From: Verrucomicrobiia bacterium
GTDB taxonomy: Bacteria > Verrucomicrobiota > Verrucomicrobiia > Verrucomicrobiales > Akkermansiaceae
Direction: 5' to 3'
DNA: 64,000 nucleotides
Assembly: GCA_030431475.1 (NCBI GenBank)
Contig: JAUIJD010000026.1
Span: 1-64,000, forward strand
Part shown: piece by piece, positions 33,224 to 36,992 of the stretch
Layout of the letters: each line of letters starts with the position of its first letter
Position numbering within the stretch: position 1 is the first letter of the stretch
Position numbers and translations under genes: made by a program
Notes under the pieces: model-generated
Told to the model about the DNA's origin: nothing
The model's database searches: none
What the model saw: only the letters and a program-made list of their open reading frames with translations

Positions 33224-34131
33224 TGCGACGAATTCAGTGTCTGGTGGGGGTGCTGGCCTGGCTGCCGATCTTTGGCGGGCTGGTGGGGGCCGAGGAATGG
33301 AAGCCGCTTTGGCGTGGCGATGCCCCGGGGGCGGCGCGGCCCGCGGAGGGCTCCGAGCAGGTCGGCGAGGGCGGGCGCCATCGCGACATCGAGCAGCCGG
33401 CGTATTTCCTCTACCCGGCGCCGGAGGAGAAGCGGACCGGCCAGGGCGTGGTGATTTTCCCCGGAGGCGGCTACACGATCCTCGCGATGAACCACGAGGG
33501 TCACGACTACGCGAAGTGGCTCAACGAGCGCGGGATCAGCGCGATGGTGGTGAAATACCGGGTGAGTGGGAACGACGGCTTCGGCTACCGCTATCCGGTG
33601 CCCTATCTGGATGCCCGGCGGGCGATCCGCACGATGCGCTCGATGGCCGATGCGCTGGATCTCGAGAGCGTGGGGGTGATGGGGTCCTCGGCCGGCGGGC
33701 ACCTGGCGAGCGTGTGCGCGACCCGCTTCGCCGACCGCTTCGAGGAGGAGGGCGGCGATGCGATCGATGCGTTGAGCTGCCGTCCGGATTTCGCGATTCT
33801 CATCTATCCGGTGATCTCCATGGGTGAGATCGCCCACGGGGGATCGCGCCGGCGTCTACTCGGGCCGTCGCCGTCGCCCGAGATGCTCGACAAGCTCTCA
33901 TCCGAGAAGCAGGTCACCGGGGCGACGCCGCCGTGTTTCCTGCTGACGACGGCGGATGACATGGTCGACTGCCGAAACAGCCTGCGTTTTGCCGATGCCT
34001 GCAAGGCGAACGGCGTGCCGGTGGCCCTGCACCTCTTCGAGAAGGGCGGGCACGGCTACGGGATGAACGTCGCCGGCAAGGGGCCGCTGGCCGCCTGGCC
34101 GGAGCTGTTGGAGGCTTGGTTGAAGAGGTGA
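33220..34131 (+). CDS. Exported alpha/beta hydrolase (BD-FAE/acetyl-esterase type)
   Basis: 303 residues with a signal peptide (LVGVLAWLPIFGGLVGA). Oxyanion motif VIFPGGGY is near residue 86, nucleophile elbow GSSAGGH near 160, acid residue in LLTTADDMVD and catalytic histidine in FEKGGHGYG. Related enzymes remove acetyl or feruloyl groups from plant polysaccharides, commonly in this phylum. It overlaps tilS by 4 bases (ATGA), though the two functions are unrelated. A REPIN-like pair starts 8 bases after its stop. Confidence 0.9.
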   Translation: MMRRIQCLVGVLAWLPIFGGLVGAEEWKPLWRGDAPGAARPAEGSEQVGEGGRHRDIEQPAYFLYPAPEEKRTGQGVVIFPGGGYTILAMNHEGHDYAKWLNERGISAMVVKYRVSGNDGFGYRYPVPYLDARRAIRTMRSMADALDLESVGVMGSSAGGHLASVCATRFADRFEEEGGDAIDALSCRPDFAILIYPVISMGEIAHGGSRRRLLGPSPSPEMLDKLSSEKQVTGATPPCFLLTTADDMVDCRNSLRFADACKANGVPVALHLFEKGGHGYGMNVAGKGPLAAWPELLEAWLKR

Positions 34132-34138
34132 GGCAGGA

Positions 34139-34255
34139 GGAGCGCCGATTATGAAATCGGCACGGAGCCCCGGGAGCGAGAGGTAGAGCTCTATGGCGGT
34201 CTTGGGACGAGCCGAGTGGAAGGGCAGGAGATGCCGATTTCATAATCGGCGCTCC
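34139..34255. repeat. REPIN-like inverted pair, GGAG-C-GCCGATT family
   Basis: Left copy 34139-34162 (GGAGC, GCCGATT, loop ATGA, AATCGGC) and its exact reverse complement 34232-34255 enclose 69 bases. It sits between the convergent esterase (stop 34131) and argF (stop 34260). Confidence 0.9.
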
Positions 34256-34259
34256 TTGG

Positions 34260-35156
34260 TCACCTCGCCAATTCCGCCAGCACGGCCTTCTGGGCGTGGA
34301 GGCGGTTCTCGGCCTGCTGGAAGATGGTGCCGGCGTGGGCTTCGAGCACGTCCTCGGTGATTTCCTTGCCACGATAGGCGGGGAGACAGTGGAGGACGAT
34401 GTGATCCGCCGCCGCCTTGGCGAGCAGGGCGTCGTTCACCTGGTAGGGACCGAAGGCGGCCTCCTTCTCGGCCTGGCCCTCCTGGCCCATGGAGAGCCAG
34501 ACGTCGGTGTTGATGACGTGGGCGCCCTCGACCGCCTCGGCGGGATCGGGGGTGACGGTGATGTTCGGGGCGTTGAGCTTCTCGAGGAAGGAGGCATCGG
34601 GCGCGTAGTCGCCGGGGCAGGCGACGGCGAAGTCGAAACCGAGGTGCTTGGCCGCCCACATCCATGAGATGGTCATGTTGGAGAAGCCGTCACCGACGAA
34701 GGCGACGCGCTTGTCCTCCCAGCTGCCGAGTTTCTCGCGGATGGTGAGCAGGTCGGCGAGGATCTGGCACGGGTGCTCGTCGTCGGTGAGCGCGTTGATG
34801 GTCGGGATGCCGGACATTTCGGCGAAGTCGACCACGTCCTGCTGGGCGAAGGTGCGGATGACCGCGCCGTGGACCATGCGGCCGAGCACGCGGGCCGTGT
34901 CGATGATGGGTTCACCCCGGCCGAGCTGGATGTCGTTGCCGGAGAGGAACATCGGAGAGCCGCCGAGTTCGCGGATGCCGACCTCGAAGGAGACCCGGGT
35001 GCGGGTGGACGACTTGGTGAAGATCATCGCCCAGGTCTGGCCGGCGAGCGGCAGGTTCTTGTGGGCCCCGCGCTCGGCCTTGAGGGCGGCGGCGGAGTCG
35101 AGCAGGGCGGTGAGCTCGGCGGCGGCGAGGTCTTCGATGGTGAGGAGGTGTTGCAT
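34260..35156 (-). CDS. argF: Ornithine carbamoyltransferase
   Basis: 298 residues. Carbamoyl-phosphate loop SSTRTRVSFE at ~49-58, DEHPCQILADLLT (HPxQ motif) at ~126-138 and the ornithine-side HCLPAYRGKEIT (the family HCLP motif) at ~258. The enzyme makes citrulline from ornithine and carbamoyl phosphate. argD lies upstream on the same strand, with a four-helix-bundle gene between them. Full length. Confidence 0.97.
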   Translation of the reverse strand: MQHLLTIEDLAAAELTALLDSAAALKAERGAHKNLPLAGQTWAMIFTKSSTRTRVSFEVGIRELGGSPMFLSGNDIQLGRGEPIIDTARVLGRMVHGAVIRTFAQQDVVDFAEMSGIPTINALTDDEHPCQILADLLTIREKLGSWEDKRVAFVGDGFSNMTISWMWAAKHLGFDFAVACPGDYAPDASFLEKLNAPNITVTPDPAEAVEGAHVINTDVWLSMGQEGQAEKEAAFGPYQVNDALLAKAAADHIVLHCLPAYRGKEITEDVLEAHAGTIFQQAENRLHAQKAVLAELAR

Positions 35157-35293
35157 TGGCTAAGCAGGTGAGTGGCTGGAGAGTGAAGAGGCGGTGGTGA
35201 AGGGGGGCTCGGGCTTTTGGGGGCGAGAGGGTTGAGGGGCCGGTGGCGAAGCGATGTGGGGTTGGATCCGGTGGCGATGCCGGAGAGTGATGC

Positions 35294-35755
35294 AGGCTTT
35301 CGTGATGAGGGGTCAGTGGCCGGTGGTCAGTGGTTCGCCTGGCGGCGCTCCAAGGCGTCGAGGAGGCCGTTAAGGAGACGCCCCACTTCATTGGTGTTGT
35401 CCAGGATGCGGTCGTGGACCGCATCCGGGATGTAGTCGTAGCGGAGCGCCAGAGTGACCTGGGTCTCCAGTTCGTTGAGTGAACCCTTGGCGATGCCAAG
35501 GAAGTGGATGAATTCTCCGGTGGTCCGACGGCCTTGGCCTTCGGCAATGTTGGAGGGAATCGATGTCGCGGCCCGGTTGATCTGGGATGTCAGTGCGAAC
35601 ATCTCGTGTCTGGGGAAGGAAACCGCGATCGGGTGGACCTCGACCGCAAGATCCATGGCCTTCTGCCAGACAATCAGGTCTCGATAGGACTGTGCTTTCA
35701 TCGTTCTTTCTTCATTCGCTGACCACCGGCCACTGACCCCTCATCACCAAAGCCT
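35294..35755. mobile_element. Candidate mobile unit: S23 gene flanked by 37-bp inverted repeats
   Basis: Left repeat 35294-35330 and right repeat 35719-35755 are reverse complements with one mismatch (AGGCTTT, then GTGATGAGGGGTCAGTGG, then CCGGTGGTCAG). They enclose a single gene, the four-helix-bundle protein at 35327-35701, giving a 462-bp unit. The right end overlaps the argD stop codon by two bases. No target-site duplication could be recognised and no transposase is encoded, so movement would have to be in trans. A degenerate pair of the same repeat lies at 48030-48185. Confidence 0.6.
35327..35701 (-). CDS. Four helix bundle protein (S23/23S rRNA-intervening-sequence protein family)
   Basis: 124 residues. 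The family signature is complete: YRDLIVWQKAMDLAVEVH, SFPRHEMFALTSQINRAATSIPSNIAEGQGR, then EFIHFLGIAKGSLNELETQVTLA and a final helix. Proteins of this family form pentameric four-helix bundles with a positively charged surface; the function is unknown. They are named after copies inside 23S rRNA intervening sequences. Here the gene is not in rRNA but between argD and argF, bracketed by inverted repeats. Its last codons lie inside the left repeat. Confidence 0.95.
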   Translation of the reverse strand: MKAQSYRDLIVWQKAMDLAVEVHPIAVSFPRHEMFALTSQINRAATSIPSNIAEGQGRRTTGEFIHFLGIAKGSLNELETQVTLALRYDYIPDAVHDRILDNTNEVGRLLNGLLDALERRQANH

Positions 35756-36992
35756 AAGCTGCAGGTTCGGTGGTCATGGCACTCAAGGTATCGCGCACGA
35801 TGTCGAGGGCTTCGGTGACCTCTTCCTCCGACACGTTGAGTGGCGGGAGGAGGCGGAGGGTTTCGGGGCCGGCGGGGGGGGCGAGGAGGCCGGCTTTGAG
35901 GAGTTCCGCAGAAAGGTGGATGGCCGGCAGCTTGCCTTCGGGGATGTCCATTTTTGAGACCTCGAGACCGATGCCGACGAGCAGGCCGAGCCCGCGGGTG
36001 CCGGTGACCAGCGGATGGTCCCACGACGCAATCGTGTCGTGAATCTGCGCGGCGCGGGCGCGCACGTTGTCGATGAGGTTCGGGACCTCTCCGAGGACCG
36101 AGAGGGAGGCGGCACAGGCGAGCGGGCTGCCGCCGTAGGTGGTGCCGTGGCTTCCCGGGCCGAGGAGCGAGGAAAGCGCAATGCTTTCGCCGATCTCCCG
36201 GTCGCTGAGCCAGAAGGCGCCGATGGGGAAGCCGCCGCCCATGCCCTTGGCCCAGCTGATGCCGTCGGGCTCGAGCTCGGCGGCGATCTCGCGCCAGGCC
36301 ATGGTCTCGCCGCAGCGGCCGAAACCGACCTGGACCTCGTCGAGGAACAGCAGGAGATCGTGCTTTTCGCAGAGCGCCTTGGCGCTGCGCAGGAATTCGG
36401 GCGTGGCGACGTTCACCCCGCCCTCGCCCTGCACGGGCTCGAGCAGGATGGCCGCGGTTTCGGGCCGGATGGCCGCAGCGAGCGCCCCGAGGTCGTTGAA
36501 GGGGAGGTGGCGGAAGCCGGGCAGTAGCGGGTCGAAGCCTTCCTTCACCTTGTCCTGGCCGGTGGCGTTGATGCCGCCGAGGGTCCGCCCGTGGAAGGAC
36601 CGGGTGAAACTCAGCACCTCGTAGCGCGGTGAGCCGTCGGGCTGGGGCCGCGCGTGGCCGAACTTCCGCGCGGCCTTGATCAGGCCGTCGTTCGACTCGG
36701 CGCCGGAGTTGGAAAAGAAGACTTTTCCCGGGATCCGGACGTGGTCCTCGACGATCACGCGGGCGAGTTCCTCCTGCTGCGGGATATGGTAGAGATTGCA
36801 GCAATGGATGAGCGTGGCCGCCTGCTTCTGGATGGCCTGGACGAGGACGTCCGGCGAGTGTCCGAGCGCGCAGACGGCGATGCCGGAGCAGAAATCGAGG
36901 TAGGCCTTGCCCTGGTCGTCCCACACGCGGGTGCCTTCGCCGCGGACGAGGGTCACGGGGAAACGGCCGTAGGTTGGAAGAAGGTAGGACAT
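35754..36992 (-). CDS. argD: Acetylornithine aminotransferase
   Basis: 412 residues, PLP-dependent class III aminotransferase. It opens MSYLLPTYGRFPVTLVRGEG, then YLDFCSGIAVCALGHS and FFSNSGAESNDGLIKAARK (phosphate-binding region). SFHGRTLG contacts PLP, LLFLDEVQVGFGR holds the ring-stacking aspartate and GISWAKGMGGGFPIGAF the Schiff-base lysine (~residue 255). It makes N-acetylornithine for arginine synthesis and is followed by argF. The earlier open frame beyond 36992 is arginine-rich shadow of the opposite strand. Confidence 0.93.
   Translation of the reverse strand: MSYLLPTYGRFPVTLVRGEGTRVWDDQGKAYLDFCSGIAVCALGHSPDVLVQAIQKQAATLIHCCNLYHIPQQEELARVIVEDHVRIPGKVFFSNSGAESNDGLIKAARKFGHARPQPDGSPRYEVLSFTRSFHGRTLGGINATGQDKVKEGFDPLLPGFRHLPFNDLGALAAAIRPETAAILLEPVQGEGGVNVATPEFLRSAKALCEKHDLLLFLDEVQVGFGRCGETMAWREIAAELEPDGISWAKGMGGGFPIGAFWLSDREIGESIALSSLLGPGSHGTTYGGSPLACAASLSVLGEVPNLIDNVRARAAQIHDTIASWDHPLVTGTRGLGLLVGIGLEVSKMDIPEGKLPAIHLSAELLKAGLLAPPAGPETLRLLPPLNVSEEEVTEALDIVRDTLSAMTTEPAA

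Follow-up and report, generated by a model that had tools for sequence, protein, structure and literature searches.

What is a gene of the S23 (four helix bundle) family doing between argD and argF, and why is it bracketed by near-perfect inverted repeats? We met this arrangement in a 64,000-nucleotide stretch of DNA (hereafter the window) from a Verrucomicrobiia bacterium of the Akkermansiaceae, positions 1 to 64,000 of contig JAUIJD010000026.1 in assembly GCA_030431475.1, where a first-pass annotation made from the letters alone had proposed a small gene mobilized in trans by a transposase that it does not itself encode. Having followed the family through the genome, the genus, many phyla and a set of plasmids, we conclude that the locus is probably one copy of a widespread, foldback-like and transposase-less mobile cassette, in which an S23 gene lies between an arm of 7-nt tandem units (heptads) and the inverted counterpart of that arm.

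On the minus strand, the S23 open reading frame (ORF; 35327..35701, 124 aa with an ATG start) is preceded by a 5′ arm (35719..35755), the inner part of which consists of 7-nt units, and followed by a 3′ arm that is its reverse complement (35294..35330). The arms, 37 nt each and separated by 388 nt, pair at 36 of 37 positions (97% complementary), which bears out the 37-bp inverted repeats of the annotation, and the whole element measures 462 bp. Both arms run into stop codons, the right one into that of argD (35754-35756), likewise as annotated, and the left one into that of the S23 gene (35327-35329). The inner part of each arm repeats a degenerate unit of 7 nt in tandem (GGTCAGT/GGCCGGT/GGTCAG). 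Folded as minus-strand RNA, the region reaches −227.3 kcal/mol, whereas 100 dinucleotide shuffles average −167.2 (z = −8.55); the terminal inverted repeats form a long stem around the ORF, as in a 23S rRNA intervening sequence (IVS), and such repeats are also a trait of terminal-inverted-repeat (TIR) transposons. No transposase lies inside the element. The family assignment is firm: the ORF matches Pfam 23S_rRNA_IVP (PF05635; E = 1.5e-38, 131.6 bits, cut-off 33.8) and TIGR02436 (E = 7.4e-36, 122.7 bits, cut-off 24), with 2gsc and 2rld as relatives in the PDB. S23 proteins are described as being without known function (PMC4990558).

The window's genome (G000), a draft of 4.73 Mb and 95% completeness, contains 14 matches to TIGR02436 that represent 13 genes (two matches belong to one broken gene), while 14 well-known control genomes contain none. 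When G000 was compared with itself, inverted repeats emerged around most of these genes, with letters that differ from gene to gene, and the majority of arms repeat imperfectly every ~7 nt (e.g., GACGTTC/GATGTTG in L007 and ACCATCC/TCCATCT in L006); the arms of L011 follow a 6-nt instead of a 7-nt period, and two faint cases (L004, L010) were judged by eye. The annotation had proposed to look for the same 37-bp ends at other S23 genes of the genome. They were absent from all other copies, and a 22-mer of the argD–argF arm, searched against the whole of G000 with up to three mismatches, returned both arms (0 mismatches) and a single 3-mismatch site on another contig, rather than a dispersed repeat, so that this test, taken literally, fails. 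A single trans-acting transposase specific to these letters is therefore not indicated, nor do S23 copies within G000 have common arms, as copies of a TIR transposon or of a miniature inverted-repeat transposable element (MITE) would. Elsewhere, a Desulfobacteraceae genome (G074, the source of locus L118) carries 24 S23 matches, many of them partial, split or interrupted by stops, as in a decaying mobile family.

To put numbers on the arms, we scored the best pairing of the left with the right flank of each S23 gene, with a cut-off of 18 and with windows shifted outward by 400-1300 bp as controls; on this scale, 10 of the 13 genes in G000 reach at least 18. A pan-bacterial set was assembled by a peptide-pattern scan of genome contigs with tblastn confirmation and comprised the best 80 of at least 588 relatives from many phyla, of which 75 loci were usable and five were dropped for their short flanks. 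Scores of at least 18 were obtained for 57/75 of these loci versus 1/256 shifted windows, and scores of at least 20 for 52/75 versus 0/256 (and for 1.6% of cross-locus pairs); 60 loci beat all 100 dinucleotide shuffles and 15 did not. Since the scan favors close relatives of the query, these fractions are no estimate for the S23 family as a whole. In the window's genus (G000-G017; 82 matches), we read 70 loci corresponding to 71 matches, two of which again form one broken gene, the other 11 matches being unlisted or at contig ends. Here, 52/70 loci versus 8/263 controls scored at least 18, and 42/70 versus 2/263 at least 20. Scored without control windows, 19 of 22 loci on viral contigs and all four on plasmids had an inverted repeat. 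The viral figure flatters, because it covers 22 of 26 loci and three of the four omitted as near-duplicates on the evidence of the listing (L161, L162, L174, and L176) resemble L160, which fails; three loci kept in the count (L165, L167, and L168) have identical arms. Phage records gave no match. Most S23 genes examined thus have their own, differently spelled inverted repeat of approximately 7-nt tandem units. The "new context" that the annotation claimed for the family was too narrow, for the same holds for most S23 genes that we looked at.

The 7-nt period of the arms is pronounced. Identity of the 5′ arm with itself at lag 7 was 0.66 in the pan-bacterial and 0.62 in the genus set as compared to 0.33 expected, with lags 1-6 and 8-13 all at or below 0.36; the best lag was 7 in 42/56 pan-bacterial and 45/51 genus loci, and 8 in 11 and 4 loci, respectively. 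On the gene strand, the 5′ arm has more G than C in 53/59 pan-bacterial and 40/53 genus loci (3 ties), a bias for which a ribosome-binding sequence could simply account. We then compared arms between orthologous copies, using the 46 of 70 genus loci that fell into 12 groups with clear synteny (after manual division of one mixed component, and without singletons or members of unclear placement). Pairing was 22.1 within loci and 16.9 between orthologues (p = 0.0005 when right arms were permuted across orthologues); a within-locus excess was missing from one of the 12 groups (20.2 vs 20.8). In a group of nine members, the forms taken by the heptad include AAAAGTA, GGAAAAA, GTGATCG, and GTTTTCA, with both arms matching. 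The arms hence stay complementary while their letters change—they co-evolve within loci.

Do arms and gene also travel together? On cyanobacterial plasmids, one S23 element occurs with 79-83% identity at three unrelated sites, one in Trichormus and Scytonema, one in Aulosira and one in Nostoc. BLAST homology between these copies (L370 1951-2366 with L381 1451-1866; L370 1948-2360 with L373 1948-2360; L381 1451-1868 with L373 1951-2368) spans outer arm to outer arm and ends within ~11 bp of the insertion ends, with identical heptads throughout; the only other matches between the three loci are further heptad arrays. Six records match the flanks of the Trichormus site at 97.4-97.8% identity, and each falls short of it by 428 bp. 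The one of these that we read, Tolypothrix PCC 7601, presents a clean empty site that contains GTAAT once and no heptads, whereas the filled site has GTAAT on both sides of 423 bp. Nostoc C052 retains a decayed S23 copy at this plasmid site. Comparable behavior is seen in the genus: arms and gene are common to L007 and L202 (69% identity), which have unrelated flanks, their homology stopping at the outer end of the right arm and 32 bp outside the left arm, and an S23 lineage adjoining a pfkB gene is found in three arrangements in G000, G012, and G014. Arms plus gene therefore act as a single unit, and one that has changed sites. This much of the annotation's trans-mobilized unit stands—a packaged gene without a transposase, with plasmid copies that have an empty site and a 5-bp duplication—in contrast to the one transposase reading these particular letters.

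Three further plasmid observations deserve mention. S23 elements sit inside CRISPR-Cas operons of cyanobacterial plasmids (L182 and L369; I-D cas6-cas4 and III-B cas10-cmr3). At cas6-cas4, Anabaena 90 has such an element and a 98.7% identical Dolichospermum plasmid a different inverted-repeat insert (L184 ~1814-2040). On a plasmid of Nostoc ATCC 53789 (L379 ~1215-1460), similar heptads surround a stretch with no annotated S23 gene, at a position where Nostoc C052 has an S23 element.

Several observations weigh against a mobile cassette. No mover was identified for the S23 element, and a clean target duplication was found just once (GTAAT, 5 bp); a second candidate, TTCTA in Nostoc, is ambiguous because the element also terminates in TTCT at other sites. 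At cas6-cas4, nrdB-nrdA, cas10-cmr3, a secretion operon and a tra operon, presence and absence were seen without clean edges. S23 genes of the genus mostly occupy fixed orthologous sites, so that current movement is not seen. Scores stayed below 18 in 18/70 genus and 18/75 pan-bacterial loci, and five genus loci scored as low as 7-9, two of these with a right flank truncated at a contig end. A heptad inverted repeat also surrounds a gene of another family, the ActD gene (PF11821) of G017 (L313 3415-4045), and the S23 protein in Coxiella has been reported as doubtful.

Given that heptads occur without S23 genes as well, we asked how closely the two are associated. A scan for inverted repeats (loop length 150-1500 bp) returned 48 in 800 kb of G000 and G017, four of which had a lag-7 identity of at least 0.5; three of these four enclose S23 genes (out of five S23 genes in the stretch) and the fourth is the one around actD. 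In 794 kb of two S23-free relatives, the scan found 11 inverted repeats and none with a 7-nt period. Pooled counts of lag-7 arrays pointed the same way (27 in 1.20 Mb of S23-bearing vs 4 in 1.19 Mb of S23-free sequence, or 17 vs 1 with a stricter cut), in contrast to the per-genome comparison of the same arrays (p = 0.27 for 6 vs 6 genomes), in which no array turned up in 100 kb of three S23-rich genomes. Two S23-free structures were noted on the side. In G017, a gene for cytochrome c oxidase subunit IV is enclosed by a weaker heptad inverted repeat (L313 14028-14467). On contig C30 of G000 (L005 ~786-906), a heptad (GCGGATT) palindrome of ~120 bp occupies an in-frame position within a gene for a PfkB-family kinase, where G012 and G014 have just 14-26 bp; this recalls the palindromic elements of Rickettsia.

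These data bear directly on the idea that heptad arrays are independent intergenic repeats and that S23 genes insert into pre-existing heptad hairpins, the arms being target site instead of element. Solo heptad arrays at three S23-free argD–argF sites are what it would predict, and so is the absence of an inverted partner (score of at least 14 within 1.5 kb) for 14/16 lag-7 arrays in 400 kb of G000 and 4/8 in G017; heptameric repeats are, moreover, known from Xanthomonas and Nostoc in their own right (PMC4692102). We nevertheless regard it as unlikely, since an identical heptad accompanies the gene to three unrelated plasmid sites, the clean empty site among these is heptad-free, and S23 genes fill three of the four heptad inverted repeats in the 800 kb scanned. 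The opposite view, that S23 is an ordinary old operon gene that does not move and is flanked by an RNA stem that selection maintains for regulation or protection, would fit the orthologous positions within the genus, the co-evolving arms and the stable stem. It sits poorly with an arms-plus-gene unit at unrelated sites, with the clean empty site and the three pfkB arrangements, and with the disagreement between S23 and argF trees described below, and strikes us as very improbable.

Two other explanations accept mobility and name a mover. An element resembling REPINs (paired repetitive extragenic palindromic [REP] sequences), moved in trans by a Y1 transposase of the REP-associated tyrosine transposase (RAYT) or IS200-like kind, shares the inverted repeat pair with the S23 arms. 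Copy counts of S23, Y1_Tnp, RVT_1, PIN, and rve, transcribed by hand over 57 genomes and correlated with kinship ignored, show that S23 copy number tracks that of Y1_Tnp (rho = 0.67; partial 0.59 given genome size, and 0.55 given size, PIN, and rve), with lower size-corrected values for PIN (0.25) and rve (0.15); causation is not shown by such a correlation. Against this, no conserved tag recurs in the arms across loci of one genome, the flanks of the one Y1 gene read form an inverted repeat without a 7-nt period (lag-7 identity 0.34), and G036 has an S23 match without any Y1 match. To our knowledge, a 5-bp duplication is also not expected of Y1 enzymes, all of which makes this mover a rather poor bet. 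Finally, S23 might be part of a retroelement, working with a reverse transcriptase in trans as a relative of Avd, a protein of diversity-generating retroelements (DGRs). The ORF has matches to bAvd (1.9e-7) and DGR Avd (2.6e-9), weak and below cut-off, and S23 counts correlate weakly with RVT_1 (rho = 0.37), the partial given size dropping to 0.20. G000 combines 14 S23 matches with none to RVT_1—in a draft that is 95% complete—and 17 of the 43 S23-bearing genomes likewise have none; a reverse transcriptase requirement for S23 is therefore unsupported, though one may have been used in the past, and we see hardly any chance that this explanation holds.

Returning to the mobile cassette, what is the history of the argD–argF copy? 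Its host genes lie on the same strand, with argD upstream (35754..36992; 412 aa from ATG; Aminotran_3, a class-III aminotransferase, 2.3e-88) and argF downstream (34260..35156; ornithine/aspartate carbamoyltransferase domains OTCace_N, 1.2e-47, and OTCace, 1.4e-45). A second inverted repeat of 43 nt and 86% pairing, apart from the element, follows argF (window 34120-34270; L001 270-312 / 382-421). Comparison of the junction in relatives, as the annotation had suggested, did reveal unoccupied sites: of 17 same-genus genomes read, six contain the S23 gene, and in the other 11 the gap spans 2-67 letters, counting the stop and start codons; all seven readable junctions outside the genus are without it. 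The target duplication that was anticipated is not visible at this copy. At three S23-free sites, short solo heptad arrays (CACTTGGC) are spelled in other letters. On an argF tree of 20 genomes, S23 presence requires five changes, a number matched or undercut by 264 of 500 shuffled labelings, so no fewer than shuffled. The argF tree pairs G000 with G017 (97/96) and the S23 tree pairs G000 with G002 (97/94). At the DNA level, argF of G000 is 88.0% identical to that of G017 and 82.3% to that of G002, and the S23 gene 72.6% and 79.3%, respectively. These discordances suggest that one of the two copies, in G000 or in G017, may have been exchanged. A possible older 3′ arm (35227..35262, minus strand), which to the eye resembles the right arm of the orthologous G017 element and to which a 20-nt partial repeat pair also points, fits such an exchange; no left partner of it was seen here. 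The argD–argF element is probably an old, patchy resident; some members of the genus have since lost it or now have a divergent allele in its place.

How might such a cassette work? A 5-bp duplication points to a DDE-type cut-and-join enzyme, and the element would move by DNA transposition, through an enzyme supplied in trans or through the S23 pentamer together with a host factor. In any transcript, the arms would fold into a ~30-bp stem, a predicted RNase III target; by analogy with S23-bearing 23S rRNA IVSs, cleavage there would free the S23 message and do little harm to the host operon. Matching of the arms would be kept by slippage within them and copying between them, or by selection for pairing. 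A bolder and decidedly tentative extension, which we judge to be less probable than not by a good way, gives S23 proteins the role of mover, or of indispensable partner to the mover, in a pan-bacterial class of elements that build and copy their own 7-nt tandem ends: each lineage would rewrite its heptad in both arms together, the ends would be recognized by period or fold instead of letters, and 23S rRNA IVSs as well as many unexplained bacterial heptameric repeats would count as special cases of such elements or as their remnants. That bacteria are over-supplied with heptameric repeats is itself described as lacking a detailed literature (PMC4692102). With S23 function and heptameric repeats linked in one cassette, both questions become testable: the unit is defined, an empty site is available, and culturable cyanobacteria provide a plasmid system. 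We further suggest that many of the four helix bundle genes now annotated as hypothetical between operon genes are mobile elements and not host genes.

Among known systems, REPINs are inverted pairs tied to RAYTs that form hairpins, contain no internal transposase and are proposed to move in trans (PMC3116915). REP sequences are common within a genome and S23 arms are not; we found no conserved REP-like sequence shared across G000 or beside a Y1 gene (the flanks of one were read). Unlike the S23 element, REPINs are not known to carry a gene. With DGRs, the likeness is confined to the distant protein similarity of Avd, G000 being without an RVT_1 match. Closer in their ends are Foldback of Drosophila and Galileo, the terminal inverted repeats of which are internally repetitive as well (PMC3573991); these elements are eukaryotic, however, Galileo has a P-type transposase, and its internal repeats are ~210 bp and not 7. 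The cyanobacterial short tandemly repeated repetitive sequences (STRRs) consist of 7-nt tandem units like those of the S23 arms. Heptameric repeats of Xanthomonas and Nostoc (GGGAATC, GGGGATT) resemble the arms in their 7-nt tandem units and, in Xanthomonas, in their frequent inverted pairs (70 in Xcc and 75 in Xac); those of Xanthomonas are reported as generally not found with mobile elements, and neither "S23" nor "four helix" appears anywhere in that paper's main text (PMC4692102). No literature joining S23 genes with heptad arms was found in titles, the beginnings of abstracts and term counts, with most subscription papers and preprints beyond reach. The nearest parallel for the gene is the 23S rRNA IVS of Coxiella, a 428-nt S23 cassette with a 28-bp stem that is processed by RNase III and has been called selfish (PMC4990558), and an S23-family ORF is also mentioned in rRNA insertions of candidate phyla radiation (CPR) bacteria (PMC11270868). 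An exact 17-nt 23S motif was present at 0 of 368 loci, and the window's element is ruled out as a 23S rRNA insertion by its place between argD and argF. What it shares with the Coxiella IVS is an S23 ORF between terminal inverted repeats (PMC4990558); what sets it apart is a position between protein genes and, perhaps, arms of 7-nt units with letters that differ at each locus. The argD–argF unit is best ranked as an IVS-like S23 cassette outside rRNA, probably mobile and with heptad arms, and part of something larger than the first-pass annotation had supposed.
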